The notes under the pieces were generated by a model. It was not told where the DNA came from and did not search any database. It saw nothing but the letters and a program-made list of their open reading frames with translations. Shown piece by piece: positions 4,480-25,635 of a stretch of 25,706 nt of DNA. Position 1 is the stretch's first letter. The number at the start of each line of letters is the position of its first letter. The DNA comes from a virus. The position numbers were made by a program, and so were the translations under genes. The DNA lies in the IMG/VR virus record IMGVR_UViG_3300042691_019489, positions 1 to 25,706 of that record, one strand, 5' to 3'.

Positions 4480-4733
4480 AAAACGTATTTTATTTTACAG
4501 CAGACTGGTGTGGTCCATGTAAAAAGGTTCGCCCAATTGTTGAAGAGTTAGTTAAAGATGGACACTCTTTTCAAATTATAGATGTTGATATTGAAAAAGA
4601 ATTAGTCAAAAATTTTGAAATCAGTTCAGTACCAACCTTTATATTGTTTGAAAATGAAAAACAAATTAATCGTATTTCAGGTGCACAAACAAAAAATAGT
4701 TTGGAGTTATTTATAAATGGACAAATTAAATAA
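4476..4733 (+). CDS. Thioredoxin-like protein
   Basis: 85 aa, shorter than the typical 105-110 aa thioredoxin. The active site WCGPC is at residues 11-15 in FTADWCGPCKKVRP, the cis-proline loop is VPTF (Pro53) and the strand FILFENEKQINRISG follows. It lacks the first helix and strand of full thioredoxins, like glutaredoxin-sized phage thioredoxins. It would reduce disulfides, for example for a ribonucleotide reductase, or keep the many cysteine-rich phage proteins reduced. It overlaps the nuclease (ATGA) and the sulfotransferase by 17 nt. Confidence 0.9.
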   Translation: MKNVFYFTADWCGPCKKVRPIVEELVKDGHSFQIIDVDIEKELVKNFEISSVPTFILFENEKQINRISGAQTKNSLELFINGQIK

Positions 4734-5418
4734 AACTTTTTACCATTTACAAATAGCAAAATGCGGTGGCACATATATTAATAATATGTTTGTTCATAGT
4801 TTATTTAACATATTTAATGAAAATTCTATTAAATATATAGATGGAGAATATCACTTAGGGTGGCAAGAGATTGAAAAGATATATACGTTATCATGCTTTA
4901 GAGATCCATTAAAAAGGACAATCAGTCATTATGCTTATTATAAAAATGGTGGTCACGAAGGAAAGCCAGTAGACGGATTACCAAACTTTATTGATTGGGT
5001 AAAAGAAAATAAAAACCTTCTTGAAAACTATCAAGTTAAAAACTTTTTATATACAAAGAAAAATTTTAATTTAAATCCATTTAATCCAACTAGTGGAATG
5101 GATCCTGACTTTATGTCAATTAAAGTAGATAAAAATAAAGTAATGAATAGAGTTAAAAATACTAATATTTTATTAAAAAATTCTCAACTTAATGACTCAA
5201 CATGTTTAAATGTAATGCAAAAAATTTTAAATGATTTTGGATTAAATAAAAAATCTTTTATTGATAAACATAAAAAGTATGATCATAATATTACTATTGG
5301 ATCAAAAGAAATATATGATACATTAAGCATTAAAGATATGGATTACATATATAGTATTAATGATTTTGATTCAGAGATATATATGTCTGATAGTTTATTT
5401 TTTAATGATGGTAAATAA
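4717..5418 (+). CDS. Sulfotransferase-family protein
   Basis: 233 aa. HLQIAKCGGTYINN at residues 10-23 corresponds to the 5'-phosphosulfate loop (PKxGGTS), and CFRDPLKRTISHY at 60-72 to the 3'-phosphate motif (FRDPxxRxxSxY), with Arg62 and Ser70 as expected ligands. Such enzymes move sulfate from PAPS to a sugar, lipid or protein hydroxyl. Cys replaces the usual Thr in the loop, which is tolerated in some carbohydrate sulfotransferases. Together with the glycosyltransferases later in the window it might decorate surface glycans. The C-terminal half is Asn/Lys-rich and AT-rich in codons. It overlaps thioredoxin by 17 nt. Confidence 0.75.
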   Translation: MDKLNKTFYHLQIAKCGGTYINNMFVHSLFNIFNENSIKYIDGEYHLGWQEIEKIYTLSCFRDPLKRTISHYAYYKNGGHEGKPVDGLPNFIDWVKENKNLLENYQVKNFLYTKKNFNLNPFNPTSGMDPDFMSIKVDKNKVMNRVKNTNILLKNSQLNDSTCLNVMQKILNDFGLNKKSFIDKHKKYDHNITIGSKEIYDTLSIKDMDYIYSINDFDSEIYMSDSLFFNDGK

Positions 5419-7727: not shown

Positions 7728-8156
7728 ATGGAATATTTGTTGATTGTGGGGTTGACATTCGTTGTCTCATGGTCTATAATTAAAATATCAAATAAAAAAA
7801 GAGGAAGATTTTTATCAAAGATTAGATATAGACAAAGCAATATCTATGAAATGGTTAAAGATGTTATTCCAAAAGAAATGTTTGATAAACCAAAGGTTAT
7901 AACACAGTCTCAAAAACATGTTCAAAAAAACATGCTAAAGGTTGTAATAACCGAAGGTAGTGCATATTGGATATTAGACAATGTGTTTTATACTGCTAAG
8001 GCTATTAATGGAAGAGTAGATGAAAGCACGGTAAAACCATTAGATATTGAAAATTTGTCAAAAAAAGATTTAGTAAAAATGTTATCTATATTAGATGACT
8101 TAAGAAAAGGAATGGAATCAAATGATAGTGGCGGTTCAGGGAACAGCGGAGTTTAA
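7728..8156 (+). CDS. Membrane-anchored phage protein of unknown function
   Basis: 142 aa. One N-terminal transmembrane segment (about residues 3-20, LLIVGLTFVVSWSII) is followed by basic residues. The C-terminal domain (about 70-130) contains KVVITEGSAYWILDNVFYTAKAINGRVD and KPLDIENLSKKDLVKMLSILDDLRKG, a combination frequent in aquatic-phage unknowns (AYWi-NvfY motif). The last residues are a Gly/Ser linker. The next gene starts 34 nt inside it in another frame, so the two are coupled. Confidence 0.7.
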   Translation: MEYLLIVGLTFVVSWSIIKISNKKRGRFLSKIRYRQSNIYEMVKDVIPKEMFDKPKVITQSQKHVQKNMLKVVITEGSAYWILDNVFYTAKAINGRVDESTVKPLDIENLSKKDLVKMLSILDDLRKGMESNDSGGSGNSGV

Positions 8157-8472
8157 CGATTATAATGTTTTTCTTCGTGCTATGAGCGTTGCCTTGTCTG
8201 GAATGAAACAAGATGATAAAGAATTTATAATTTATTCTGTTGGTCCAGCAAGAGTGAATAATTTTGTTTCAGAATTTTCTAATTTGTCTGAACGTGGCAT
8301 GAAGGCTAGAGGTAAAAAAATTAAATTTTATAATACAGCACCTTCATGGCTTGATACAAATATGAACCAGGTAAATTATTTTGCTTTTTTAAGCAAACCA
8401 AATGAGTCAAAATCTAGATTAGTTTCTAGTGCTGAATCAAAAAATATTGAAGTTGGAATTTTTAGGTATTAG
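8122..8472 (+). CDS. Rossmann-like protein, possibly SLOG/YspA-related
   Basis: 116 aa. It starts MIVAVQGTAEFNDYNVFLRAM, a strand-loop-helix start like the DUF2493/YspA group of the SLOG superfamily, followed by FIIYSVGPARVNNFV and a KKIKFYN strand. SLOG proteins bind nucleotides or nucleic acids. The conserved NYFAFLSKP segment is characteristic here but I cannot place it. It overlaps the previous gene by 35 nt; a later start is not obvious. Moderate confidence in the coding call, low in the family. Confidence 0.65.
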   Translation: MIVAVQGTAEFNDYNVFLRAMSVALSGMKQDDKEFIIYSVGPARVNNFVSEFSNLSERGMKARGKKIKFYNTAPSWLDTNMNQVNYFAFLSKPNESKSRLVSSAESKNIEVGIFRY

Positions 8473-8480
8473 GAGAGCAT

Positions 8481-8690
8481 ATGATTATTAGAAGTTTAAA
8501 TACAATGGATAAAATTGTAAACAAAAACAAAAACCTTGTTTGGGATGGATGGAATGTTATTGATCTAAAAGAATCAGACATGGCAAAAACATCTGTAAAT
8601 GGAATTAGAATAAAAGATAAGTGGTACTTACATAAAATATACAAACCAGGTCGTAATGGTTGGGATATTCCAAATAAGTATAGGGAGTAA
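8481..8690 (+). CDS. Small protein of unknown function
   Basis: 69 aa. Aromatic-rich: KNLVWDGWNVIDLKES, then RIKDKWYLHKIYKPGRNGWDIP, suggesting a small beta-structured domain. An AGGAGA ribosome site precedes ATG 8481. It sits in an operon between the SLOG-like protein and whiB, with WhiB starting 2 nt after its stop. No motif gives a function. Confidence 0.7.
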   Translation: MIIRSLNTMDKIVNKNKNLVWDGWNVIDLKESDMAKTSVNGIRIKDKWYLHKIYKPGRNGWDIPNKYRE

Positions 8691-8692
8691 TC

Positions 8693-8974
8693 TTGAAGCA
8701 GCATTTATGGAAAGATGAGGCTTCTTGTTTAGGTCTTGAAACAAATTTATACTTTGATAAGTATGAAGATGAAGAAGGAATTAGACATAACGTTGATGCA
8801 CTTTGTAGACAGTGCCCTGTTAGAAAAACATGTTTTGCTAATGGAGTATCTGGAAAAGAGTGGGGAATTTGGGGAGGTATTTATCTTGAAACTGGAGAAA
8901 TCTCAAGAGAATTTAATAAACATAAATCTAAACAAGACTGGTCAAACACTTGGCAAGCACTGACAATGGAGTAA
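8693..8974 (+). CDS. whiB: WhiB-family iron-sulfur transcription factor
   Basis: 93 aa from a TTG start preceded by AGGGAG. The four cluster ligands are Cys12, Cys38, Cys41 and Cys47 in the standard C-x(n)-CxxC-x5-C order (ALCRQCPVRKTC), and the G[VI]WGG turn is at 58-62 (WGIWGG). A helical, basic C-terminus (NKHKSKQDW) could touch DNA. WhiB proteins are confined to actinobacteria and their phages; they bind a 4Fe-4S cluster and associate with the primary sigma factor. The mycobacteriophage TM4 copy represses host whiB2 and gives superinfection exclusion, a plausible role here. Confidence 0.93.
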   Translation: MKQHLWKDEASCLGLETNLYFDKYEDEEGIRHNVDALCRQCPVRKTCFANGVSGKEWGIWGGIYLETGEISREFNKHKSKQDWSNTWQALTME

Positions 8975-8978
8975 TATA

Positions 8979-9740
8979 GTGATTATACAAATAATTGGAC
9001 TACCTGGATCTGGTAAAACGGAACTGGCAAAATCACTTAAAGACCGTATAAATGCTATTCATCTTAATGCAGATGAGGTAAGATCAACAGTTAATTCGGA
9101 TCTTGGTTTTACCGCTAAAGATCGCATAGAGCAAGCACGACGTATGGGTGAAATGGCTAGGCTTATTGCTAAGCAAGGAGTTGCTCCAGTAATTGTAGAT
9201 TTTGTCTGTCCAACAGATGCTACAAGAGAGGCATTTGGTAAGCCAGATATTTTAATTTTTATGGATACAATTCAAAAAGGTAGATTTGAAGACACAAATA
9301 AAATATTTACAACACCAAAAGAGTTTGACTTTATGTTTTCTGATCATGAAAAAAATCCATACGATAAAGCAAGTTTAATTATTTCTTTATTTGAATTACA
9401 TGATTGGTCCGCTCCAACAACATTGATGCTTGGTCGCTATCAACCTTGGCATGAAGGGCATCATGCTTTGTATAAAGAGGCAGGGAAAAGAACAGAGCAG
9501 GTACTACTTGGAATACGTAATACATACAAAACTAGTGAAAAAGATCCACTGACATTTGATGAAGTAAAGGGTTATATTGATAAAGATGAATTTATGAAGG
9601 ATGCAATGGTATTGCGTTTGCCAAACATTACTAACATTGTTTATGGTCGTGATGTTGGATACAAGATTGAACAAGTAGATTTGGGGGCAGAGATTCATGC
9701 TATTTCGGCTACTGAAAAACGTCGTCAACTGGGTATCTAA
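8979..9740 (+). CDS. Fused APS-kinase-like P-loop kinase and HxGH nucleotidyltransferase
   Basis: 253 aa, GTG start with GGAG upstream. N-terminal domain (1-140): Walker A GLPGSGKT at 7-14, then NADEVRSTVNSDLGFTAKDR and RRMGEMARLIAKQG, closely following the APS kinase (CysC) pattern; FVCPTDATR stands where CysC has FISPYRxxR. C-terminal domain (145-253): LMLGRYQPWHEGH with His158 and His161 as the HxGH pair, and ISATEKRR near the end (ISxTxxR). This is the NMN-adenylyltransferase/cytidylyltransferase-type signature rather than the ATP-sulfurylase one. Possible roles are PAPS supply, NAD salvage, or sugar/nucleotide activation. The domain order is the reverse of NadR. Confidence 0.82.
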   Translation: MIIQIIGLPGSGKTELAKSLKDRINAIHLNADEVRSTVNSDLGFTAKDRIEQARRMGEMARLIAKQGVAPVIVDFVCPTDATREAFGKPDILIFMDTIQKGRFEDTNKIFTTPKEFDFMFSDHEKNPYDKASLIISLFELHDWSAPTTLMLGRYQPWHEGHHALYKEAGKRTEQVLLGIRNTYKTSEKDPLTFDEVKGYIDKDEFMKDAMVLRLPNITNIVYGRDVGYKIEQVDLGAEIHAISATEKRRQLGI

Positions 9741-10012: not shown

Positions 10013-10242
10013 TGTATACAGATTCTATGCGAAAAGCCTTTCATTCAATACAGGCTCCAAAAGGATTTTCTGTTGAACTTGTTGACAACGATCACTTTCT
10101 TACAATTAAGTTAAATGAAAAACAATTTGCTAAAATGGTTCATGATGAAAAAATTCGGGCACTGCAATACACCGTTCAATTAAAAAAAGCATTAGAGATG
10201 GAAGGCGCTGTAGTATTAGTCACTAGAGAGGCTGTTAAATGA
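10012..10242 (+). CDS. Small phage protein of unknown function
   Basis: 76 aa. An N-terminal beta-like part (QAPKGFSVELVDNDHFLTIKLN) and a helical C-terminal part (FAKMVHDEKIRALQYTVQLKKALE) ending in VVLVTREAVK. No cysteines or membrane segment. Coupled by TAATG to DUF2061 and by a 4-nt overlap (ATGA) to the halogenase, so it is translated as part of that operon. Function unknown. Confidence 0.65.
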   Translation: MYTDSMRKAFHSIQAPKGFSVELVDNDHFLTIKLNEKQFAKMVHDEKIRALQYTVQLKKALEMEGAVVLVTREAVK

Positions 10243-11780
10243 AAAATATTGTTATTGTTGGTGGCGGGTCTGCTGGTTGGCTAACGGCTTTATATGCAAA
10301 AAAAATATATCAAGAAGATAATATTATTTTAGTAGAAAGTGAAGAATACGGCATTCTTGGTGCAGGAGAAGGATCTACTCCAAACATTATTGGCTTTATG
10401 AATTTTTTAGATATATCAGTAGAAGATTTAATAAAAAATTGCAATGCAACAATAAAAAATGGAATTAAATTTACAAATTGGTCTGAAAAAGAGGATAGTT
10501 ATTTTCATCCGTTTCAGTCAATAAATGAGGCATCAAATGATTATAATTTTTATTTAAATAGTCGTTTTATAGAAAACGATACAAACTTTTCTCATTACTG
10601 CGCTTCTTTAAATGATCATGAATTTAAAGATTATGTCTTTGTTGAGAAATTTTCAAATAATTTTCAAGTCCCATATTTAAAAGAAAACAATCCTATCAGC
10701 ATGAATCAACTATCTAATATATCTATTCATTTTGATGCAAACCTTTTAGCAAAATATTTAAGATTGATTGGAGAGTCTAGAGGAATCTTAAGAAAAGAAG
10801 GAATTGTAAGCGAAATATCTGAAGATTTAGAAGGATATATAAACAAAATAAAAACAAATAAAGAAGAAATAAGTTGTGATTTTGTTTTTGATTGTTCTGG
10901 TTTTAGAAGATTAATTATAGGAAAACATTATAAAATAAAATGGAAATCTTATTCAAAGTATCTTCCAGCAAAAAAAGCACTTCCATTTTTTTTAGAAATA
11001 GACAAAGACATACCACCGTATACAGAGGCAATTGCAATGGACTATGGATGGATGTGGAAGATTCCATTACAAAATAGGTATGGATGTGGATATGTCTTTG
11101 ACAGTGACTTTATTTCAGACGAAGAAGCAAAAAAAGAAATAGAAAATTACTTAGGGTTTGAGCCAATATATCCTAGAAAAGATAAAGGCGCTTTTAATTT
11201 TGAAGCAGGATGTTTTGAAGAAGTTTGGAACAAAAACTGTTTGGCTGTTGGTCTATCCTCTGGATTTTTAGAACCATTAGAGGCAACATCAATAATGCAG
11301 TTAATCACGGTTTTAACAAAATTTATGTCAAATAAACAAAACTTAACTACAAAAAATAATTTAGTTAAAAAAAGATTTAATGATATGTATTTAGAAGAAA
11401 CTCAAGAAATTGTTAACTTTTTATATTTACACTATGTAACAAATAAAATAAATACTAGTTTTTGGAAAAATTTTACAAAAAACAATGAAATGCCAGAAGA
11501 GATAAAATATATTTTGAGTGTTTGTAAAGATAAAACTTTATTTAATGATTTTGATTTTTATAAAAATAAAATTTTTTCTGCATACTCATATCACTATATT
11601 TTAATAGGAAATAAAATTATTGATAATGTTATTCTTAAAAGAAATGCAAACTTTATCTTAGACAATATCAAAAAAGAAAATTATAAAAATATTTTAAGAA
11701 AACAAGATTTTTTAATTCCTAAACTGTTGACACATAATTATTTTATTGATACAATAAAACAATGGGAGAATAATGATTAA
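10239..11780 (+). CDS. Flavin-dependent halogenase (tryptophan-halogenase family)
   Basis: 513 aa, the normal length for the family. FAD-binding IVIVGGGSAGWLTA at residues 4-17, GAGEGSTPNI at 41-50, CNATIKNGIKFTNW with the probable catalytic Lys73, FVFDCSGFRR near 215, and the diagnostic WxWxIP as WMWKIP at 271-276. GLSSGFLEPLEATSI follows (FLEPLE motif). Such enzymes use FADH2, oxygen and halide to make hypohalous acid passed to the lysine and then to an electron-rich substrate. A related viral halogenase from a cyanophage (VirX1) is known. No partner flavin reductase is in the window, so host FADH2 is implied. Its operon mates do not indicate the substrate. Confidence 0.9.
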   Translation: MKNIVIVGGGSAGWLTALYAKKIYQEDNIILVESEEYGILGAGEGSTPNIIGFMNFLDISVEDLIKNCNATIKNGIKFTNWSEKEDSYFHPFQSINEASNDYNFYLNSRFIENDTNFSHYCASLNDHEFKDYVFVEKFSNNFQVPYLKENNPISMNQLSNISIHFDANLLAKYLRLIGESRGILRKEGIVSEISEDLEGYINKIKTNKEEISCDFVFDCSGFRRLIIGKHYKIKWKSYSKYLPAKKALPFFLEIDKDIPPYTEAIAMDYGWMWKIPLQNRYGCGYVFDSDFISDEEAKKEIENYLGFEPIYPRKDKGAFNFEAGCFEEVWNKNCLAVGLSSGFLEPLEATSIMQLITVLTKFMSNKQNLTTKNNLVKKRFNDMYLEETQEIVNFLYLHYVTNKINTSFWKNFTKNNEMPEEIKYILSVCKDKTLFNDFDFYKNKIFSAYSYHYILIGNKIIDNVILKRNANFILDNIKKENYKNILRKQDFLIPKLLTHNYFIDTIKQWENND

Positions 11781-18930: not shown

Positions 18931-19132
18931 TTTGTCCTCTAGCAATTGCAGCAGAAATATCAAATGCTTTTTGTGTTCTGCGAGACTTGTTTAATCCTTT
19001 TGCTTTCCAAAGTTTTGCAGTACCTTCAATATCTACAGCAATCTGATCCCTGATTTCTTTAACTGTAAACACAATAAAATCCCAAACTTGTTCTTTTTGT
19101 TTTTCGGTTAGTTCATCTGTCCAGTTAGTCAT
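18905..19132 (-). CDS. Small helical phage protein of unknown function
   Basis: 75 aa from ATG 19132, placed 7 nt after GAGG; the two earlier in-frame starts (TTG 19144, ATG 19138) sit on or too near that site. Helical, with KEQVWDFIVFTVKEIRDQIAVDI and TQKAFDISAAIARGQN, a pairing common among actinophage unknowns I recall. Overlaps the zinc peptide before it by 8 nt. Function unknown. Confidence 0.65.
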   Translation of the reverse strand: MTNWTDELTEKQKEQVWDFIVFTVKEIRDQIAVDIEGTAKLWKAKGLNKSRRTQKAFDISAAIARGQNEVQIEKP

Positions 19133-19226
19133 CTTCATCCTCAAAATCTCTCAGGGCACTAGAATTGCTAAAACAATTATTACAATCGCCATTAACCAAC
19201 CTGCCACCACAGTAGTCACAAAACAT
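19125..19226 (-). CDS. Zinc-ribbon micro-protein
   Basis: 33 aa from ATG 19226: MFCDYCGGRLVNGDCNNC gives Cys3-x2-Cys6 and Cys15-x2-Cys18, a complete tiny zinc ribbon, then an acidic tail. The reading frame is open further upstream only because it runs through the tRNA-Arg gene. A TATCAT -10 lies 6 nt before the ATG. Probably first gene of the transcript entering the glycan operon. Confidence 0.6.
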   Translation of the reverse strand: MFCDYCGGRLVNGDCNNCFSNSSALRDFEDEDD

Positions 19227-19232
19227 ACTTCT

Positions 19233-19241
19233 ATGATACCA
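19233..19241 (-). promoter_or_regulatory. Extended -10 promoter, leaderless
   Basis: On the - strand TGGTATCAT, with the -10 at 19233-19238 and 6 nt to ATG 19226. The -35 is not convincing. It lies 3' of tRNA-Arg and would drive the zinc peptide and the glycan operon. Confidence 0.5.
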
Positions 19242-19246
19242 GATAG

Positions 19247-19319
19247 TACCCCTGGCAAGAGTTGAACTTGCGACACATGGCTTAGAAGTCCATTGTTCTA
19301 TCCACTGAACTACAGAGGC
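19247..19319 (-). tRNA. tRNA-Arg (UCU)
   Basis: On the - strand: acceptor GCCTCTG/CAGGGGT with G-U pairs, anticodon loop CTTCTAA, anticodon TCT (complement of 19284-19286), T-arm GCAAG-TTCAACT-CTTGC, discriminator A. The pair closing the anticodon loop is an A-G mismatch. AGA codons are common in the nearby genes. CCA is not encoded. Confidence 0.92.
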
Positions 19320-19323
19320 TTGG

Positions 19324-19396
19324 CTGGTCTGGCTGGGCACGATCCAGCAACTTCCAAATTAACAGTTTGGCACTCTACCAATTGAGTTACAGACCA
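19324..19396 (-). tRNA. tRNA-Asn (GUU)
   Basis: On the - strand: acceptor TGGTCTG/CAGACCA fully paired, anticodon stem CCAAA/TTTGG, loop CTGTTAA, anticodon GTT (complement of 19361-19363), T-arm GCTGG/CCAGC, discriminator G. AAC/AAU codons dominate the AT-rich genes here. CCA is not encoded. It lies 4 bases upstream of tRNA-Arg. Confidence 0.94.
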
Positions 19397-19596: not shown

Positions 19597-20286
19597 CTAT
19601 CTATAGTTTTTTGATGTCCAAAATTGTCTTTTATAAGAATTAAAAAGCAAGGTTTTTAACTTTTTAATTACTAGATCTAGTTCTGTTCGTTCTTTATTAG
19701 ATCCTATTTTATGTTTCCAAGACTCTCTTTTAAATGGTATTATTTGAGCCATTGGAGTTCCTGCGGGTATTATCCCTTCCCATTTAACATCATTAAGTAC
19801 AAATGGAAAATTAACTGGGGCTTTGTATTGGTCAGTGTCTACGACTCCTTCAAGGATAGTAAACACAGATTCCCTGTGCATTGGTTGTGTAAATAAAACT
19901 GAGTATCCAGGTGGAGTGGCAATTGCATAAGGATTCATCCATTTAGGATATGGTGCTTCATTTTTTAATGGATGCAAAGGTGCTTGAACAATTGGATGAA
20001 AATCAATAGCATGTTGAGATGCCCAACTGTAGTATGGTAGGTTATCTTGTTGCGTTACCTGAACATCTACCTGAGTATAAAGAATATAGCCAGAAGTTAT
20101 TGCATCAAATACAGGCATACACTTTTTAATTGTGTGTGATGAACTACCATCATTAGGAACCTTTTTTACTTCATTGCCAATATATTCTGATGTATCTCTA
20201 TACCAATCTGGCACTTCTTTTACTGCTGGCTTAGGTGGAAAAAAATCTAATCCAAGCACATTAGTAAATATTATTTCTTTAGACAT
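19597..20286 (-). CDS. DUF6065-like protein, copy 1
   Basis: 229 aa. Shared with the copies at 21906, 22597 and 24858: PPKPAVKEVPDWY near the start, IKKCMPVFDAITSGYILY, then ATPPGYSVLFTQPMHR, ILEGVVDTDQYKAPVNFPF and EGIIPAGTPMAQIIPFKRESW, and a basic C-terminus ending in KNYR. The C-terminal half has the GVVDTD...(strand)...GTPxAQIIP order of the dUTPase motifs III and IV. I recall such proteins as DUF6065 in phages and bacteria; function unknown. Leaderless promoter, starts 6 nt after the -10. Confidence 0.7.
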   Translation of the reverse strand: MSKEIIFTNVLGLDFFPPKPAVKEVPDWYRDTSEYIGNEVKKVPNDGSSSHTIKKCMPVFDAITSGYILYTQVDVQVTQQDNLPYYSWASQHAIDFHPIVQAPLHPLKNEAPYPKWMNPYAIATPPGYSVLFTQPMHRESVFTILEGVVDTDQYKAPVNFPFVLNDVKWEGIIPAGTPMAQIIPFKRESWKHKIGSNKERTELDLVIKKLKTLLFNSYKRQFWTSKNYR

Positions 20287-20292
20287 ATAATA

Positions 20293-20301
20293 AGTATATC
20301 A
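20293..20301 (-). promoter_or_regulatory. Extended -10 promoter, leaderless, of DUF6065-like copy 1
   Basis: On the - strand TGATATACT with -10 at 20293-20298; the ATG at 20286 is 6 nt away. The -35 at 17 nt is poor. Confidence 0.65.
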
Positions 20302-20320
20302 CTAAGAATTTCTGTATCAT

Positions 20321-20461
20321 TTAATGACCCCTTGCAATTTTTGCAGCAAGAATTCTCATGCCCACAGCATTTGTTTTGCTTGCTTCAATTTCAATAGCCT
20401 CAATTTTTTGGGCTATTTCTTCACGTATTTCTTTTATTATAATTTCTTGTGTTTTTTCCAT
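20321..20461 (-). CDS. Small helical protein
   Basis: 46 aa, a continuous charged helix (TQEIIIKEIREEIAQKIEAIEIEASKTN) ending in ILAAKIARGH. Its ATG directly follows the TAA of the secreted protein gene upstream, so it is read from the same message. It ends shortly before the promoter of DUF6065-like copy 1. Function unknown. Confidence 0.6.
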   Translation of the reverse strand: MEKTQEIIIKEIREEIAQKIEAIEIEASKTNAVGMRILAAKIARGH

Positions 20462-20860
20462 TTATTTTTCTATTTCCTTACATAGTTTATCAAATTGCGT
20501 AATAGATTTAATTTTTAAATTCATAGCAAAAGTAATTGCTTCAACATTTTTATCATTTAGTGCTGTTTTTGTATTTTTTTCTGCTACAATCCAAGAAGAA
20601 ATTGTCGTTTTAATTTTTCCAGTTGTAGATTTTTGTTTTTTATTAAGCATGTTTATATTAAAATCTATTTCTTTTAATACATCTTGGTCACTGGCCATTC
20701 CATTAGACCACTTAGACATAACTTCTGATTGGTAAGTTGTTTTAATGTTTTTGCAAGAAGCCTTATTGGCTTTAGTTTTTAATGATTTTGTTGTAGCATC
20801 AGCAGATGCAATTGGCATAAACAATGATATTAATAAAGAAGTTATTATTATTTTTTTCAT
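20462..20860 (-). CDS. Secreted lysine-rich protein
   Basis: 132 aa. Signal peptide MKKIIITSLLISLFMPIASA with cleavage after the Ala-Ser-Ala, then a Lys/Thr-rich mature part of helical character with two cysteines (KASCKNIK and KLCKEIEK) that could form a disulfide. Exported, so it may act in the periplasm or outside the host. Its promoter is one of the clearest here and the mRNA should be leaderless. Family not recognised. Confidence 0.7.
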   Translation of the reverse strand: MKKIIITSLLISLFMPIASADATTKSLKTKANKASCKNIKTTYQSEVMSKWSNGMASDQDVLKEIDFNINMLNKKQKSTTGKIKTTISSWIVAEKNTKTALNDKNVEAITFAMNLKIKSITQFDKLCKEIEK

Positions 20861-20866
20861 ATTATA

Positions 20867-20895
20867 AGTATACCAATCTAAACGAGTTTTGTAAA
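20867..20895 (-). promoter_or_regulatory. Leaderless promoter of the secreted protein
   Basis: On the - strand: TTTACA (20890-20895), 17-nt spacer ending in TGG, TATACT (20867-20872), then 6 nt (TATAAT) and ATG 20860. Among the best promoters in the window. Confidence 0.8.
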
Positions 20896-20896
20896 G

Positions 20897-21016
20897 TCAT
20901 AAAATACTAATATCTAAAACATTGTCTACTGATTCATCTATTGTATTGCTAATAGGACTAATAGACTTTGGCAAACCACCAATATCCCATCCTGAAGGAG
21001 TTTGCGATTCACACAT
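20897..21016 (-). CDS. Small protein of unknown function
   Basis: 39 aa, MCESQTPSGWDIGGLPKSIS then a Val/Asp-rich end. I recall MCESQTPSGWDxGG-like short proteins as common in phages, but no role is known. The ATG lies 6 nt after a TAGAAT -10, with no ribosome site. It ends where the secreted-protein promoter begins. Confidence 0.55.
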   Translation of the reverse strand: MCESQTPSGWDIGGLPKSISPISNTIDESVDNVLDISIL

Positions 21017-21020
21017 AGTA

Positions 21021-21170
21021 TTATTCTATTCTTGTATCTGGACTTTTTAAATAAAATACCAAAGTCATTTTTAATCCGCAAGGGCAATGAAGGTTATAAT
21101 CTAACTCTTTATGGATTTCCATGTTGATCTTGGTAGCGCAACCATCACATATAAATTCATAGGTATGCAT
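21021..21170 (-). CDS. Zinc-ribbon micro-protein (FmdB-like start)
   Basis: 49 aa. MHTYEFICDGC gives Cys8-x2-Cys11, and LHCPCGLKM gives Cys29-x-Cys31, similar to FmdB-type MPxYxxxCxxC proteins. An AGGGG-type site precedes it and its ATG overlaps the stop of the gene before (TGATG). The last codons cover the -10 of the next gene. Function unknown. Confidence 0.6.
   Translation of the reverse strand: MHTYEFICDGCATKINMEIHKELDYNLHCPCGLKMTLVFYLKSPDTRIE
21023..21028 (-). promoter_or_regulatory. Putative -10 of the 20897 gene
   Basis: On the - strand TAGAAT ends 6 nt before ATG 21016, within the last codons of the zinc protein. It lacks the TGn extension, so it is less certain. It fits the spacing of other leaderless promoters here. 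Confidence 0.45.
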
Positions 21171-21346
21171 CAGTTACCCCTTCCTAAAAAATCTATTAAT
21201 TGTTCTACAATTATAACATCACGACCATTAATTTCATGCCCATACTCTGATGCAAAGGCTTGTATTTCTTTAATGATTCCAGTTCTCATCTTGTTAGCAA
21301 GTACTGGATGCATAATTTCAATTCTGTAAAAATCATCATTGCTCAT
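21170..21346 (-). CDS. Small helical protein
   Basis: 58 aa: MSNDDFYRIEIMHPVLANKM, then a helix (TGIIKEIQAFASEYG) and a strand (GRDVIIVEQLIDFLG). No cysteine or membrane helix. Overlaps its neighbours by a few bases on both sides. It reads as one unit with the 21021 gene. Function unknown. Confidence 0.6.
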   Translation of the reverse strand: MSNDDFYRIEIMHPVLANKMRTGIIKEIQAFASEYGHEINGRDVIIVEQLIDFLGRGN

Positions 21347-21434
21347 TTTTTTCCCAGACTATCCTGCCATCTTTCCAGACAGGCCAATAGCCAAGATCAC
21401 GCCAATCCATGTTCATAATTTTAGGTTCTTTCAT
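21336..21434 (-). CDS. Tryptophan-rich micro-protein
   Basis: 32 aa with four Trp (MDWRDLGYWPVWKDGRIVWEKN). A short beta-hairpin-like W-x-V-W-K-D-G-R-I-V-W pattern is seen. Overlaps both neighbours (ATGA with the 21431 gene). No strong ribosome site; read-through coupling is likely. Assigned as a gene from position and composition only. Confidence 0.45.
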   Translation of the reverse strand: MKEPKIMNMDWRDLGYWPVWKDGRIVWEKNEQ

Positions 21435-21517
21435 TGTTCAACTTTATATGTCATTACAAAATAACAAGCAGTGTATCCTAAAATAAATGCTGGTATAAGA
21501 AATAGTATATTAATCAT
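21431..21517 (-). CDS. Single-pass membrane micro-protein
   Basis: 28 aa, almost entirely a hydrophobic helix (INILFLIPAFILGYTACYFVM) with a basic end. AGGAG sits 6 nt before ATG 21517. First gene of the four-gene transcript from the promoter at 21540. A helper of lysis or membrane sensing is possible without evidence. Confidence 0.55.
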   Translation of the reverse strand: MINILFLIPAFILGYTACYFVMTYKVEQ

Positions 21518-21539
21518 TTTTTCTCCTATCGGTATATTC

Positions 21540-21568
21540 AGTATATCAATTTTTCAAGGGTATGTCAA
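21540..21568 (-). promoter_or_regulatory. Strong sigma70 promoter of the 21517-21021 gene set
   Basis: On the - strand: perfect TTGACA (21563-21568), 17 nt ending in TGA, TATACT (21540-21545). The leader includes AGGAG before ATG 21517. It overlaps the start region of the divergent gene at 21583. Confidence 0.85.
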
Positions 21569-21570
21569 GA

Positions 21571-21576
21571 TATAAT
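21571..21576 (+). promoter_or_regulatory. -10 of the GIY-YIG-like gene, leaderless
   Basis: TATAAT ends 6 nt before ATG 21583. The -35 is poor, and no ribosome site exists, so the message starts at the AUG. The opposite-strand TTGACA is 3 nt away, so the two polymerases would compete. Confidence 0.6.
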
Positions 21577-21582
21577 AAACAC

Positions 21583-21903
21583 ATGGAAAGAACTCTGCTA
21601 TACCTAATATACTCTCCAGCCCTTAAAGCATTTAAGGTTGGTATAACAAACCTATCTAATCGTAGATACTCGCAGCATAGAGTCAAAGGTTGGATGCTAA
21701 TTAAATACTGGTATTTTCAAGATAGAGGTTTGGCAAAAAATGTAGAATCTGAGGTTTTAAAAGTTCTTCGTAATAAGTTTCCAAAGGCTTATCTTGTTAA
21801 AGAAGATATGCCACAACATGGATACACTGAGGCTTTTAGTTCTGAAGCAATCTCATCCCGTAAAGTTATTAATATAATTAATAAATTAATAAAAGATTAT
21901 TAG
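21583..21903 (+). CDS. GIY-YIG-superfamily (T5orf172/MUG113-like) nuclease
   Basis: 106 aa from ATG 21583; an earlier ATG at 21562 lies upstream of the -10 and is unlikely. LLYLIYSPALKAFKVGIT takes the place of the GIY...YIG strands (LYLI...KVGIT), NRRYSQHRVKGW supplies the catalytic Arg region, and VESEVLKVLRNKF the metal-binding Glu. Such nucleases make single-strand cuts. Small copies in phages are homing or host-DNA-degrading enzymes. It is a + strand gene amid - strand genes and ends 2 nt from the convergent DUF6065-like copy 2 stop. Confidence 0.75.
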   Translation: MERTLLYLIYSPALKAFKVGITNLSNRRYSQHRVKGWMLIKYWYFQDRGLAKNVESEVLKVLRNKFPKAYLVKEDMPQHGYTEAFSSEAISSRKVINIINKLIKDY

Positions 21904-21905
21904 TT

Positions 21906-22604
21906 TTAATCGTATTTTTTTCTTGTCCAAAATGTTTTTTTATACCAACCATAAATTAAAGAAGAGGTTTTTGTATTATGTTCATTAGATTTTTTTAATA
22001 GTCCACTTATTTTTTTATGTATCCAATTTTCTTGACGATAAGGAATTAACTGAATTATTGGAGTTCCTTGTGGAATTATTCCTTCAAAGCCTTCTTTAAT
22101 AAAGAATGGAATTTGTCCTCTTGGATTCATGACAAGGCCTCCATCAACAATACCACTTAAAGTTATAAATGGTAGATCGTGCCTGTTAAGTGGATGTGTA
22201 AAAAGTATGCTATATCCAACTGGTACAGTATTTGAAACACCAGGTTGCCAAACAAATTCTATTGGATAATAACCAGTTGGAACTAAATCTAAACTGGATA
22301 ACTCTTGTCTTGCAATTGGTGGAAATTCAGTTTTATTCCAGGTAATAAAAGGAACACCATTATTATTTTTAACATAAAGGTCATTTGGTAAAACTATCAT
22401 ATATCCAGCAGTTAAAGAATCCATAAAGGGCATACAGTGTTTAACAGTAATATTAAACCCTTTTCCAACCTCAAACATTTCGTTATTTTTCCATTTTGGA
22501 ATTTTTTTATACCAATCTGGAATATGATTTTTTGCTGGAGTAATTATGTTTGGATATGTTTCTATTGCAGACTCATATTCTAATATTGTTTTCTTTCTAA
22601 ACAT
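21906..22604 (-). CDS. DUF6065-like protein, copy 2
   Basis: 232 aa. ITPAKNHIPDWYKKIP, VKHCMPFMDSLTAGYMIVLP, VPVGYSILFTHPLNRHDLPF, ITLSGIVDGG and EGIIPQGTPIIQLIPYRQENW reproduce the family landmarks. This copy differs by GG in place of the D-T-D after GIVD and by Arg-Gln in place of Lys-Arg. Its ATG overlaps the stop of copy 3, so the two are one transcript from 23305. Ends KKTFWTRKKYD, like copy 1. Confidence 0.7.
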   Translation of the reverse strand: MFRKKTILEYESAIETYPNIITPAKNHIPDWYKKIPKWKNNEMFEVGKGFNITVKHCMPFMDSLTAGYMIVLPNDLYVKNNNGVPFITWNKTEFPPIARQELSSLDLVPTGYYPIEFVWQPGVSNTVPVGYSILFTHPLNRHDLPFITLSGIVDGGLVMNPRGQIPFFIKEGFEGIIPQGTPIIQLIPYRQENWIHKKISGLLKKSNEHNTKTSSLIYGWYKKTFWTRKKYD

Positions 22605-23298
22605 ATGTTTTTTTATCTTTCATTAATGAAAAATAAGCACGATTTATTTTTGAATATAATTTTTCATTATCAAAAAAATGCTGATTTGGTTTTTTTACAC
22701 TAAAGTTTGATTCCCAATGATCTCTTTTGAATGGAATAATTTGAAACATTGGTGTATCTTTTTCTATCATACCTTCAAAATTATTTTTTATTACAAAAGG
22801 AACATTTATTGCTGCATCATAAATGTCTGTATCAACAATGCCAGGAATTGTATAAAATGGTAGATCTGGATAAGCCGTCGGATGCATAAAAATACATGAC
22901 CATCCTGGTGGAGTTTTGATTGTCCATCCATGCAAGTTTTTAAAAAATGGCTTAGAGTATCCATCCATAATCTTAAAATCAGCACCTTGAAAATCTGACC
23001 ATGTGTCTACGACTGGAGTATTTGTAGCCCATTGAACCCAAGGTCTTTCATTTTTCTGTGTTACATATAAGTCAGCCCACAATGGAACATAGTACCCAGC
23101 ACCAAGCATGTCTAATGTTGGAACACATCTTTTTACAGTAACAGTTGGATATGGATCTAAACTAAATTTATTTTCACTATTTGAGTAGGCTGGAGTTTCT
23201 TTCCACCATTTAGGCAAACCTTTTATTGCTGGATATGGCCTTGGCCTTACATTCCACACATGCTCATCTTGTGCTACAAAATCTATAATTTTCCCCAT
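22597..23298 (-). CDS. DUF6065-like protein, copy 3
   Basis: 233 aa. RPYPAIKGLPKWWKETP, VKRCVPTLDMLGAGYYVPLWADLYV, IKTPPGWSCIFMHPTAYPDL, IPGIVDTDIYDAAINVPFVI and EGMIEKDTPMFQIIPFKRDHW. It is closest to copy 4 in the LPKWF/W and the VPLWADxxV stretch. The last region is variable. The mRNA is probably leaderless. It heads an operon with copy 2. Confidence 0.7.
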   Translation of the reverse strand: MGKIIDFVAQDEHVWNVRPRPYPAIKGLPKWWKETPAYSNSENKFSLDPYPTVTVKRCVPTLDMLGAGYYVPLWADLYVTQKNERPWVQWATNTPVVDTWSDFQGADFKIMDGYSKPFFKNLHGWTIKTPPGWSCIFMHPTAYPDLPFYTIPGIVDTDIYDAAINVPFVIKNNFEGMIEKDTPMFQIIPFKRDHWESNFSVKKPNQHFFDNEKLYSKINRAYFSLMKDKKTYV

Positions 23299-23304
23299 AT
23301 ATTA

Positions 23305-23313
23305 AGTATAGCA
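23305..23313 (-). promoter_or_regulatory. Extended -10 promoter, leaderless, of DUF6065-like copies 3 and 2
   Basis: On the - strand TGCTATACT with -10 at 23305-23310; ATG 23298 is 6 nt downstream. The -35 is weak at 17 nt. Confidence 0.65.
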
Positions 23314-23330
23314 CCGACCCTTCTTTTCTG

Positions 23331-23441
23331 CTAAAACATTTCTTCCGAACATATAAGACAAAATCTTTTGTCATCTTTGCCAAGAGTAAAATGAAATCCC
23401 ATACGACATTTAATATGTCTTTTCCATATCCACCAAATCAT
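23331..23441 (-). CDS. Cysteine-containing micro-protein
   Basis: 36 aa: MIWWIWKRHIKCRMGFHF, then RFCLICSEEMF with a CxxC near the end; with Cys12 and His17 this could be a small zinc site. Its ATGA overlaps the stop of the glycosylase-like gene, so it is coupled to it. Function unknown. Confidence 0.5.
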   Translation of the reverse strand: MIWWIWKRHIKCRMGFHFTLGKDDKRFCLICSEEMF

Positions 23442-23899
23442 AACGTATGTGTTGGCCAATAATATAAACACTTGTCGCAGCAAGGGTTGGCGGTATTGAG
23501 TTTAAACTCTGCATAATGCATAGAGTCCTTACGATATAGATTAGCCCTATGGCTAAGAGTAACACGATCAAGATGCTCTGGCTGAGACCATATTGGTTTG
23601 ACATTACCCCAACGCCTTGCAAACTTAGCCTTTAGTTCTTTAAGGTTTGATATATTTTTATCTGTTTTAATTCCACGGTAGTTAGCCTCAATAGCCATAT
23701 AATTAATATACTCATCAAGGTAATGCTCAGAGTTCTTCCACATCAATACGGCTGGATGATTTCTCCAAGCACCTGATTCTGAAGCACCAGACAATATCTT
23801 TAAGATTTGATAGCCTTCAAGAATCTGTTTGTTGAGGCGTTTATTATCTAGCGTTTCGGCGACCTGCTCGTAATCTGAAAAGGGTAGAAAGGTTTGCAT
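23438..23899 (-). CDS. Pyrimidine-dimer-glycosylase-like protein
   Basis: 153 aa. MQTFLPFSDYEQVAETLDNKRLNKQ and ILEGYQILKILSG, WRNHPAVLMWKNSEHYLDEY, then LSHRANLYRKDSMHYAEF agree with the MQTFLPYxDF...LDxxRLxKQ...WRNHPAVxMW family commonly annotated as pyrimidine-dimer DNA glycosylase in actinophages. Direct similarity to T4 DenV is not visible, so the activity is tentative. UV repair would suit sunlit freshwater. A CCDKC near the C-terminus could bind zinc. Its promoter is TTGACT-N17-GACAAT and the mRNA leaderless. Confidence 0.75.
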   Translation of the reverse strand: MQTFLPFSDYEQVAETLDNKRLNKQILEGYQILKILSGASESGAWRNHPAVLMWKNSEHYLDEYINYMAIEANYRGIKTDKNISNLKELKAKFARRWGNVKPIWSQPEHLDRVTLSHRANLYRKDSMHYAEFKLNTANPCCDKCLYYWPTHTL

Positions 23900-23905
23900 G
23901 TATTA

Positions 23906-23934
23906 ATTGTCCCAAATTTTGTGGCAAAAGTCAA
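23906..23934 (-). promoter_or_regulatory. Leaderless promoter of the glycosylase-like gene
   Basis: On the - strand TTGACT (23929-23934), 17 nt ending in TGG, GACAAT (23906-23911), 6 nt, then ATG 23899. Confidence 0.7.
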
Positions 23935-23967
23935 GAGCCTTTTATACACATGCTCAGGTGTAACCAG

Positions 23968-24099
23968 TTATTTTATGTCGCTGTCTCCCCCGACAAGAGA
24001 GTTACGACCACTTCCACAAGATAGGGAACAATCGTCCATGCCTCTATGCCCTTTATATTTAGAGTCCGATGGCGGGACTAGGTAGTTTAATTTATTAAT
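23968..24099 (-). other. 43-codon open frame without a standard start, or structured leader RNA
   Basis: Below a promoter at 24130 the transcript carries AAGGAG (complement of 24106-24111) followed 6 nt later by an open frame that begins with ATT at 24099 and ends TAA at 23968. The peptide is Gly/Ser/Asp/Cys-rich, with LVPPSDSKYKGHRG and MDDCSLSCGSGRNS. AUU starts are rare (infC) but the ribosome site is well placed. The segment is GC-richer than its surroundings and contains hairpins such as AGTCC-7 nt-GGACT and TGTCG-10 nt-CGACA, so a non-coding RNA is equally possible. About 290 bases here, 23935-24226, lack any conventional gene. Confidence 0.35.
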
Positions 24100-24129
24100 G
24101 TTCGTCTCCTTGCCTAGGGCGACAAATTA

Positions 24130-24158
24130 ATTATATCAAAATTCGGCGATAAAGGCAA
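24130..24158 (-). promoter_or_regulatory. Promoter reading into the 24099-23968 segment
   Basis: On the - strand TTGCCT (24153-24158), 17 nt ending in TGA, TATAAT (24130-24135). Its spacer shares CCGAATTTT with the promoter at 24638, which suggests a duplicated or co-regulated element. Confidence 0.6.
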
Positions 24159-24226
24159 AGCGCAAAATATAGTTTTTAAGTTCGGCGACGGTAGAGATAT
24201 AAAACCTACCTATGCCCTAAAGGGCA

Positions 24227-24334
24227 CTATCGGTGAGTAGTCTTCATATGCCTAGATAAAGAGTCGTGAGCAAAGATACCCCATCTAAGTTCCCACTCTT
24301 TATTGCAAGTAGGACAGATTATTATCCTCATCAT
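24227..24334 (-). CDS. C2H2 zinc-finger micro-protein
   Basis: 35 aa from ATG 24334, with a second ATG at 24331. IICPTCNKEWELRWGIFAHD then SLSRHMKTTHR: Cys7-x2-Cys10, x12, His23-x5-His29, and a further His34, the spacing of a classical C2H2 finger with aromatic and leucine core positions. Its ATGA overlaps the stop of the previous small gene. A DNA- or RNA-binding regulator is likely. C2H2 fingers are unusual in bacteria but occur in some phages. Confidence 0.6.
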   Translation of the reverse strand: MMRIIICPTCNKEWELRWGIFAHDSLSRHMKTTHR

Positions 24335-24447
24335 TTTTTATTAATACACCATAATCTATCTGGAAGCCATTGATGGGTTTCATAGAAATCTTCTTCGTCT
24401 TCTGACATATTACATTGAATACAACTAGTATCCATTGAGGCACTCAT
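24331..24447 (-). CDS. Small CxxC protein
   Basis: 38 aa from ATG 24447 (a second ATG at 24435 gives 34 aa). TSCIQCNMSEDEEDFYETH, then RLWCINKK: Cys9-x2-Cys12, a His and Cys34 could hold zinc. An in-frame ATG at 24522 is inside the upstream gene and improbable. It overlaps the previous gene by 23 nt and the C2H2 gene by ATGA. Function unknown. Confidence 0.5.
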   Translation of the reverse strand: MSASMDTSCIQCNMSEDEEDFYETHQWLPDRLWCINKK

Positions 24448-24631
24448 TTCTAGTGTGGTAAAGTCTGGTTTGTATAATGGTTTTTTTGGTTGGGGCACAG
24501 ATAAGATACCCACAACACCCACAGTTCATAGACCACTCTCCAGCAAACCAATCATATATAAAGCCTTTAGACTTGCGTTCTTTCCTAGCGACAAACCTAG
24601 TAAATGGATCTGGGATTTCCATATTGATCAT
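24425..24631 (-). CDS. Cysteine-rich small protein
   Basis: 68 aa. MEIPDPFTRFVARKERKSKG leads to MNCGCCGYLICAP with Cys37, Cys39, Cys40 and Cys45 and later His59 and Cys64 in YHTRNECLNGY: a probable zinc fold with four or more ligands. It has a leaderless promoter of the common form and begins a three-gene unit of zinc micro-proteins. Function unknown. Confidence 0.6.
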   Translation of the reverse strand: MINMEIPDPFTRFVARKERKSKGFIYDWFAGEWSMNCGCCGYLICAPTKKTIIQTRLYHTRNECLNGY

Positions 24632-24753
24632 ATATCTATTATCTCAGAAAATTCGGGGGAAGTCAAAAAGTACCCAATTACCCCTATAAGACATAACCCT
24701 ATATACCAAACCTTGTTTTTGAGATAGCCAGATATGCCAGATAGTCCAGACAC
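24628..24753 (-). CDS. Possible membrane peptide with SG repeats, GTG start
   Basis: 41 aa: VSGLSGISGYLKNKVWY, a hydrophobic helix (IGLCLIGVIGYFL), then SPEFSEIIDI. The stop overlaps ATG 24631 as ATGA, typical of genes here. No ribosome site precedes the GTG, and the frame is open for a further 100 bases upstream without a start codon. It may be a decayed gene or chance. Confidence 0.3.
   Translation of the reverse strand: MSGLSGISGYLKNKVWYIGLCLIGVIGYFLTSPEFSEIIDI
24638..24666 (-). promoter_or_regulatory. Leaderless promoter of the zinc micro-protein unit
   Basis: On the - strand TTGACT (24661-24666), 17 nt ending in TGA, GATAAT (24638-24643), 6 nt, ATG 24631. Confidence 0.75.
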
Positions 24754-24848
24754 AGAATGTGCTTGATATAAAGGTTTGAACCCATAGGCTCTATGCTGGT
24801 TTGATAAACCAGATATGCCTGATATTGGATCCAGGATGATGGTTTGAT
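24728..24848. repeat. Short direct and inverted repeats
   Basis: CCAGATATGCC occurs at 24728-24738 and 24809-24819. GGTTTGA occurs at 24773, 24798 and 24841. CTGGTTT-GAT-AAACCAG at 24796-24812 is a perfect 7-bp hairpin. They lie between DUF6065-like copy 4 and the zinc micro-proteins. Possible operator, terminator remnant or replication-related element. Confidence 0.5.
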
Positions 24849-24857
24849 ACCCTGCGA

Positions 24858-25586
24858 TTATTTAAATTTCTTTTTAGAATGATGGTTTTTTAAGTAATGT
24901 CCTACCATTGTGCCATTAAAGTTTTTTTCTTCAATAACATCATAGTATTCACCATCTTCGTAGTAATCAAAAGTAGAGTACCAATCATCTCGTTTAAAAG
25001 GAATGATTTGTGCCATTGGAGTACCTTTTTCAACTATACCTTGAAAACCAGTTTTAATCCACATTGGAAAGATTAACTCAAGAGTTGACCTATCAGTATC
25101 TACAATTGCTGGAACAGCCTTAAATGGTAAGTCGTTATGGCCAAGTGGGGATACTATCAAACATGAATACCCCTTGGGTGTTTGTGGTATCCAGCAATTT
25201 AAGTACTTGTAAACTTGGTTGTCATATCCTGTTGGTGGAATAATATTTTGTGTAGATTCTCCATGTTTGGCAAATATATCATGCCTTGTTTTCCAAAATA
25301 GATCACCCCCAGATTCAGTCTGTTCAACCATTACATCTGCCCATAGGGGAACAATATATCCTGAACTCATTCCATCAAGCAATGGAACACATTTTTTAAG
25401 TGTTGCATTTGCTCCTCTATCTCTAAAATGAAGTTTTCCATCATTTGGGAAATTTGGATTGCTTTTGTCTGAATATGGTTCCATATCTAAAAACCATTTT
25501 GGTAATTGTTTAACTGCTGGATATGGCTTAGACTGAATGTTAAATTCTGTTTTACTTCTAGCCCTAAAATTTATATTTTTTGACAT
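24858..25586 (-). CDS. DUF6065-like protein, copy 4
   Basis: 242 aa, the longest copy, with an extra loop (about residues 45-60, GKLHFRDRGAN). KPYPAVKQLPKWFLDMEPY, LKKCVPLLDGMSSGYIVPLWADVMV, TPKGYSCLIVSPLGHNDLPF, PAIVDTDRSTLELIFPM and QGIVEKGTPMAQIIPFKRDDW show the common family. It has a promoter with TTGATC-N17-TATACT and a ribosome site (GGTGGG), unlike the leaderless copies. Its role is unknown, see the paralog finding. Confidence 0.7.
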   Translation of the reverse strand: MSKNINFRARSKTEFNIQSKPYPAVKQLPKWFLDMEPYSDKSNPNFPNDGKLHFRDRGANATLKKCVPLLDGMSSGYIVPLWADVMVEQTESGGDLFWKTRHDIFAKHGESTQNIIPPTGYDNQVYKYLNCWIPQTPKGYSCLIVSPLGHNDLPFKAVPAIVDTDRSTLELIFPMWIKTGFQGIVEKGTPMAQIIPFKRDDWYSTFDYYEDGEYYDVIEEKNFNGTMVGHYLKNHHSKKKFK

Positions 25587-25606
25587 TTACCCACCTAACT
25601 TATATA

Positions 25607-25635
25607 AGTATATCATCTATAAAAGCCCTGATCAA
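25607..25635 (-). promoter_or_regulatory. Promoter of DUF6065-like copy 4
   Basis: On the - strand TTGATC (25630-25635), 17 nt ending in TGA, TATACT (25607-25612). A 20-nt leader-like stretch with AGGTGGG leads to ATG 25586. Confidence 0.75.

Follow-up and report, generated by a model that had tools for sequence, protein, structure and literature searches.

Four genes of one viral family on one strand

We analysed a 25,706-nucleotide stretch of viral DNA (IMG/VR record IMGVR_UViG_3300042691_019489, positions 1 to 25,706), hereafter called the window, in which an initial annotation had described four divergent paralogs as DUF6065-like, with a C-terminal half resembling dUTPases. The four open reading frames (ORFs) were confirmed to be intact, to lie on one strand and to belong to one family, phrog_7084:

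19597..20286, minus strand, copy 1, DUF6065-like, 229 amino acids (phrog_7084 E 1.7e-63); the copy used for modelling
21906..22604, minus strand, copy 2, DUF6065-like, 232 amino acids (phrog_7084 E 2e-28)
22597..23298, minus strand, copy 3, DUF6065-like, 233 amino acids (phrog_7084 E 3.1e-37)
24858..25586, minus strand, copy 4, DUF6065-like, 242 amino acids (phrog_7084 E 8.8e-41)

The family phrog_7084, to which no function is assigned, was matched by all four copies over 207-226 residues (E 2e-28 to 2e-63). Pairwise BLASTP among the copies gave identities of 30-38% over 185-218 amino acids (E 1e-26 to 3e-48), and their alignment contained 34 invariant columns, which include the shared motifs that the annotation had named: PA..P.W, T.K.C.P..D....GY, P.G.S, VD and TP..Q.IP. 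Copy 2 carries VDGG at motif III and not VDTD, so that the second Asp of this motif is lost; this may be another sign of functional differences among the copies.

The label DUF6065 is valid for the window copies in a wide sense only. Pfam DUF6065 (PF19541) scored copy 1 at E 0.031 and 14.2 bits, short of the gathering cut-off of 26.6 bits, and gave no match to copies 2-4. The cut-off was passed by HSTV-2 gp40 (35.7), a protein from a Chloroflexi metagenome-assembled genome (MAG; 38.8) and a Sphingomonadales protein. Homology itself was borne out when the viral profile (94 copies) was compared by hhalign with the core bacterial DUF6065 profile (prob 97.7, P 1.8e-12, 140 columns).

The predicted fold is that of dUTPases

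An AlphaFold2 model of copy 1, built with an alignment of 94 homologs, reached a predicted local distance difference test score (pLDDT) of 95.1 and a predicted template-modelling score (pTM) of 0.89. Foldseek comparison with the PDB returned 49 dUTPases among the top 50 entries (best E 2.5e-4, prob 1.00), the 50th being a dCTP deaminase (DCD; 2yzj). In VIA-align, the 50 best PDB entries were all dUTPases, with Z scores of 9.8-10.9 and a matched span of model residues 1-206 (3hza, for example: Z 10.4, 116 residues, 2.6 A). The possibility, raised with the initial annotation, that a model would lack the beta-clip or resemble another fold best was thus not borne out. The proposed likeness to dUTPases stands as regards the fold, and its limitation to the C-terminal half falls away, since residues 1-206 are matched. 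The model supports a predicted dUTPase-type beta barrel that takes up nearly the whole protein.

The viral profile matched dUTPases among the PDB sequences across motifs III-IV at a weak E of 1.4. Comparison with 30 dUTPases by hhalign gave P 0.0027 and a score of 26.5, whereas 30 profiles with shuffled columns did not exceed 19.3 and the reversed profile reached 15.4. PF00692, the profile of the trimeric dUTPases (Dut), matched none of the four copies at E up to 10, and matches to Kunitz inhibitors in the PDB sequence search (E 0.6) were dismissed as chance. The weakness of the direct sequence signal is what speaks for a likeness to dUTPases by chance or by shared topology. However, sequence and structure agree on the register of motifs III-IV, and two separately modelled families both retrieved dUTPases at the top; we consider a chance match extremely improbable.

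The second of these families, phrog_17480, is viral, has no assigned function and is absent from the window. Within the DNA examined, its gene was found at 15 of 58 viral loci, often touching a DUF6065-like gene; examples are L050:7226-7948, L055:6686-7399 and 8100-8789, and those on contigs L062, L058, L066, L067, L072 and L049. The family is recognised by the signature CPAF ... FDIGxWFRP, and its profile matched the viral DUF6065-like profile with P 1.2e-4. Its own model (pLDDT 89.3, pTM 0.87) had only dUTPases as top matches in the PDB, with Z scores of 7.0-8.0, which are borderline alone and consistent with a dUTPase fold. The dUTPase-like model and the elements C-P-A-F, G-x-F-D-I-G-x-W-F-R and x-E-P bring it close to phrog_7084, whereas the signature residues of the two families differ. 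In hhalign comparisons with dUTPases, no sequence signal came from the phrog_17480 profile (P 0.36) or the core DUF6065 profile (P 0.71), and the link of these two to dUTPases therefore rests on structure and on the intermediate family.

Motifs III and IV are kept in part, and other dUTPase motifs are lost or replaced

The motif III hairpin of dUTPases recognises the nucleoside. Residue counts in 94 diverse viral copies revealed as invariant or nearly so C56, G66, P178 and Y218 (94/94 each), K54 and D150 (93/94 each) and Q181 (89/94). D150 of GIVDTD was aligned by hhalign to the catalytic Asp of motif III, and Q181 of GTPxAQ to the Gln of motif IV (with its Gly in 92/94), so that the earlier reading of these two motifs is upheld by profile alignment. 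The position of the motif IV Arg is occupied by Pro in 94/94. The segment TPPGYSVLF, with its P-x-G-Y, was placed by hhalign on the IPxG[FY] strand preceding motif II and not on motif II itself; the PRSG of motif II has no counterpart, the aligned residues being P-[ML]-[HN]-[RN]. G66-Y67 stands in place of motif I, a placement made by topology and the G-Y pair and not by hhalign. The pair fits motif I, but the metal-binding Asp is absent, position 68 being I, L, M or V in 81/94. The functions of the dUTPase motifs are established knowledge, described in part in PMC5593958.

Motif V is absent, and its glycine-rich arm is replaced by a C-terminal Y-K-x-x-F-W-x-x-K-x-Y. Residues specific to the family are K54, C56, P58 and D61, which lie before or on helix 57-64, together with S129, K186-R187 and W190, and Y218, W223, K226 and Y228 at the C terminus. 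These residues may have taken over functional roles.

Like trimeric dUTPases (PF00692), the family has a predicted barrel over residues 1-206, a motif III of the form G-x-[IV]-D-x-D, a motif IV of the form G-x-x-[IM]-A-Q and a P-x-G-[FY] strand ahead of motif II. Unlike them, it adds a helix with K-x-C-x-P-x-x-D and a C-terminal arm of its own, measures 230 amino acids as against about 140, and lacks the motif I Asp, the motif II RSG, the motif IV Arg and motif V. Judged by the PF00692 motifs, the sequences are therefore not those of dUTPases. The dCTP deaminases and DCD-DUTs have the same superfamily fold, and DCD-DUTs also lack motif V (PMC5593958). The window family nevertheless matches dUTPases better, one DCD having appeared in the Foldseek top 50, and no catalytic Glu of DCD was recognised in its sequence by eye. 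The homologous Pfam DUF6065 proteins share with it C-x-P, G-Y/W, P-x-G-Y and D/E-T-D, whereas core bacterial members carry GIVETDW, with Glu replacing Asp, and a motif IV without AQ.

We considered whether the genes supply the virus with working dUTPase or dCTP deaminase activity. The dUTPase fold and the retained residues of motifs III (Asp) and IV (Gln) are in keeping with this, as are the adjoining thymidylate synthase gene in HSTV-2, the nearby ribonucleotide reductase (RNR) genes in HF1, Hardycor2 and S-RIM4, and the finding that PF00692 was unmatched in three complete viral genomes. It is very unlikely, however, in view of the missing motif residues, of the redundancy that four diverged copies would represent, and of a canonical dUTPase that co-occurs in 3/3 alphaproteobacterial genomes and 2/5 long viral contigs tested. 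In view of this canonical dut in the genomes and contigs tested, a role as dUTPase replacement was rejected.

Arrays of old paralogs in viruses, and solitary copies in bacteria

A scan of viral contigs, from which at least 80 loci were kept, and a genome scan with a 7-row alignment were used to survey the family. At least 144 copies were counted over the 80 loci, HSTV-2 and the window. Among the matches listed, the 58 non-redundant loci carried one (27 loci), two (19), three (8) or four (4) copies, that is, more than one copy at 31/58. Neighbouring copies formed 47 pairs, 40 of them on one strand, and 26 pairs were less than 50 nucleotides apart. Arrays are therefore a habit of the family, and with four copies the window matches the highest number observed in stretches of this limited length. 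About fifty records of haloarchaeal viruses and three cyanophages carried one copy each. Bacterial copies were found in Rhodobacterales, Sphingomonadales and others; PF19541 was present in 36/289 sampled alphaproteobacterial genomes (about one in eight), and also in Caulobacter vibrioides. Two converging copies (L088:486-1874) lie on a contig of 3.5 kb that was binned as Microbacteriaceae and is probably a viral contig in a MAG.

A tree of 106 proteins placed each of the four copies in a lineage of its own, beside relatives from other viruses, which agrees with the diversification proposed earlier. One contig, L021, carries relatives of copies 1, 2 and 4 together, and the grouping of copy 2 with its L021 relative had a bootstrap support of 95 and an SH-like approximate likelihood ratio test (SH-aLRT) support of 73. 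From this we take the duplications to be old and the lineages to travel as a group. As judged from these sequences, the paralog history fits specialisation and not recent amplification.

Multiple copies, an accessory position and the keeping together of ancient paralogs would also be expected of anti-defence or regulatory binders, acting either as nucleotide-switched signals like the staphylococcal phage dUTPases or as sponges for immune nucleotides; phage dUTPases are known to regulate the Stl repressor (PMC5593958). Direct evidence for such binders is lacking and no association with defence genes was seen; moreover, the gene is single in some fifty halovirus records and a lone chromosomal gene in bacteria. 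We regard this role as distinctly unlikely.

Viral relatives lie among tail-fibre and decoration genes

The neighbours of the viral relatives include tail fibre, glycine-rich, fn3, tail collar, tail-fibre assembly and baseplate-type genes, and also glycosyltransferases, tryptophan halogenases (L070), 2OG-Fe(II) oxygenases and sulfotransferases. HF1 and Hardycor2 have the gene between RNR on one side and the tail-fibre region on the other, on the strand opposite to the fibre genes. That tail-fibre region tracks host specificity and is bordered by the Hafunaviridae gene (PMC7230728). The gene lies beside thymidylate synthase in HSTV-2 and close to RNR in S-RIM4. At the bacterial loci (15 core and 17 other), copies were solitary and no conserved neighbour was found beyond close relatives, and the chromosomal neighbourhood was dropped as a guide to function.

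The phage context speaks for a role in accessory functions or host interaction, and the copies in bacteria and archaeal viruses speak against one that is purely fibre-bound. The mixed neighbours mean that context does not settle function. A virion or tail-fibre-associated protein, in which a trimeric dUTPase-like barrel serves as a structural or receptor-binding module, would account for the fibre and baseplate-type neighbours, for the border with the host-specificity region in Hafunaviridae and for the tandem diverged copies. Against it stand the absence of an attachment domain, the opposite orientation of the halovirus gene to the fibre genes, the unrelated neighbours of the solitary bacterial copies, and pocket-type residues that viruses and bacteria have conserved alike, which is not the pattern of receptor-binding tips. 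We think this explanation unlikely.

Expression signals and other features of the window

A short box, TATACTTA, occurs 10 times in the window against 2.0 expected (about fivefold), a number reached in 0/100 shuffles:

20291..20298, minus strand, TATACTTA box just upstream of copy 1
23303..23310, minus strand, TATACTTA box just upstream of copy 3, and hence of copy 2
25605..25612, minus strand, TATACTTA box upstream of copy 4
1625-1632 and 20865-20872, plus five others in the window, TATACTTA boxes elsewhere

The box also precedes the ORFs at 20462-20860 and 1637-1852. It may be a phage-specific promoter with a very short leader or none; were it a −10 element, transcripts would start almost without a leader, because its distance to the ATG is mostly very short. 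A generic sigma-70 scan of the window gave 38 hits against a background of 32.4 +/- 5.7, which is no excess. The mostly separate promoters suggested initially are thus retained for copies 1, 3 and 4, but not for copy 2, which has no box of its own. Its ATG lies inside the end of copy 3, and owing to this overlap it is probably translated from the same transcript.

Other features of the window are as follows:

2480-2708, tRNA genes for Gly, Glu and Met, and 19246-19396, tRNA genes for Arg and Asn (five in all)
4717-5418, putative sulfotransferase-like ORF (recognised by eye)
8979-9740, ORF whose N-terminal half is APS-kinase-like and whose C-terminal half is a nucleotidyltransferase (NMN adenylyltransferase-like)
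10239-11780, FAD-dependent, halogenase/LodB-like enzyme; tryptophan halogenases neighbour DUF6065-like genes elsewhere (L070)
19125-19340, ORF, probably spurious, that overlaps tRNA-Arg
23438-23899, between copies 3 and 4, pyrimidine dimer DNA glycosylase (Pyr_excise, E 5.8e-18)

A putative ligand-binding branch of the dUTPase superfamily

On the basis of the model and the conserved residues, we propose that the four genes are ancient paralogs from a divergent branch of the dUTPase/dCTP-deaminase superfamily, which would comprise phrog_7084 and Pfam DUF6065 and would have phrog_17480 as its sister family. The dUTPase barrel, the motif III hairpin with its Asp and the motif IV Gln are predicted to be kept in the monomer. 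Missing from it are the Asp with which motif I binds Mg, the RSG (motif II), the Arg (motif IV) and the P-loop-like glycine-rich arm (motif V). The K-x-C-x-P-x-x-D before and on the helix and the C-terminal arm Y-K-x-x-F-W-x-x-K-x-Y would be their replacements. The protein may assemble into a dUTPase-like trimer and bind a nucleotide or a nucleotide-like ligand in the inherited pocket. It would act either as an enzyme whose chemistry has changed and runs through the Lys/Cys site, or purely as a binder, within a phage gene set of accessory and host-interaction functions.

Three points weigh against this proposal. The query-normalised Foldseek template-modelling scores were only about 0.34-0.41, which are low because the protein is larger than a dUTPase; a fold does not show function; and the viral context is one of tail-fibre and decoration genes and not of nucleotide metabolism, HF1, Hardycor2, HSTV-2 and S-RIM4, with RNR or thymidylate synthase nearby, being the exceptions. 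The literature searched made no mention of DUF6065 or phrog_7084 and held nothing relevant on a dUTPase-fold tail or anti-defence protein. With these points taken into account, we judge it somewhat probable that the genes encode divergent dUTPase-fold paralogs that bind or convert a nucleotide-type ligand at an altered site, in an accessory or host-interaction role; a non-canonical binder of such a ligand, or an enzyme acting on it, is our best guess from the model.

More tentatively, and with some doubt, the family may represent a third, previously unrecognised branch of the dUTPase/dCTP-deaminase superfamily in tailed phages, haloarchaeal viruses and alphaproteobacteria. In such a branch an invariant Lys/Cys site would replace the metal and phosphate motifs and would act on nucleotide-type molecules in a new way, by reaction or by signal, with arrays of specialised paralogs in phages. 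The analysis gives a predicted fold, a candidate pocket and residues to probe to three families with no assigned function, two of them large viral ones and the third from Pfam, which sit in aquatic phages and are conserved in haloarchaeal viruses.

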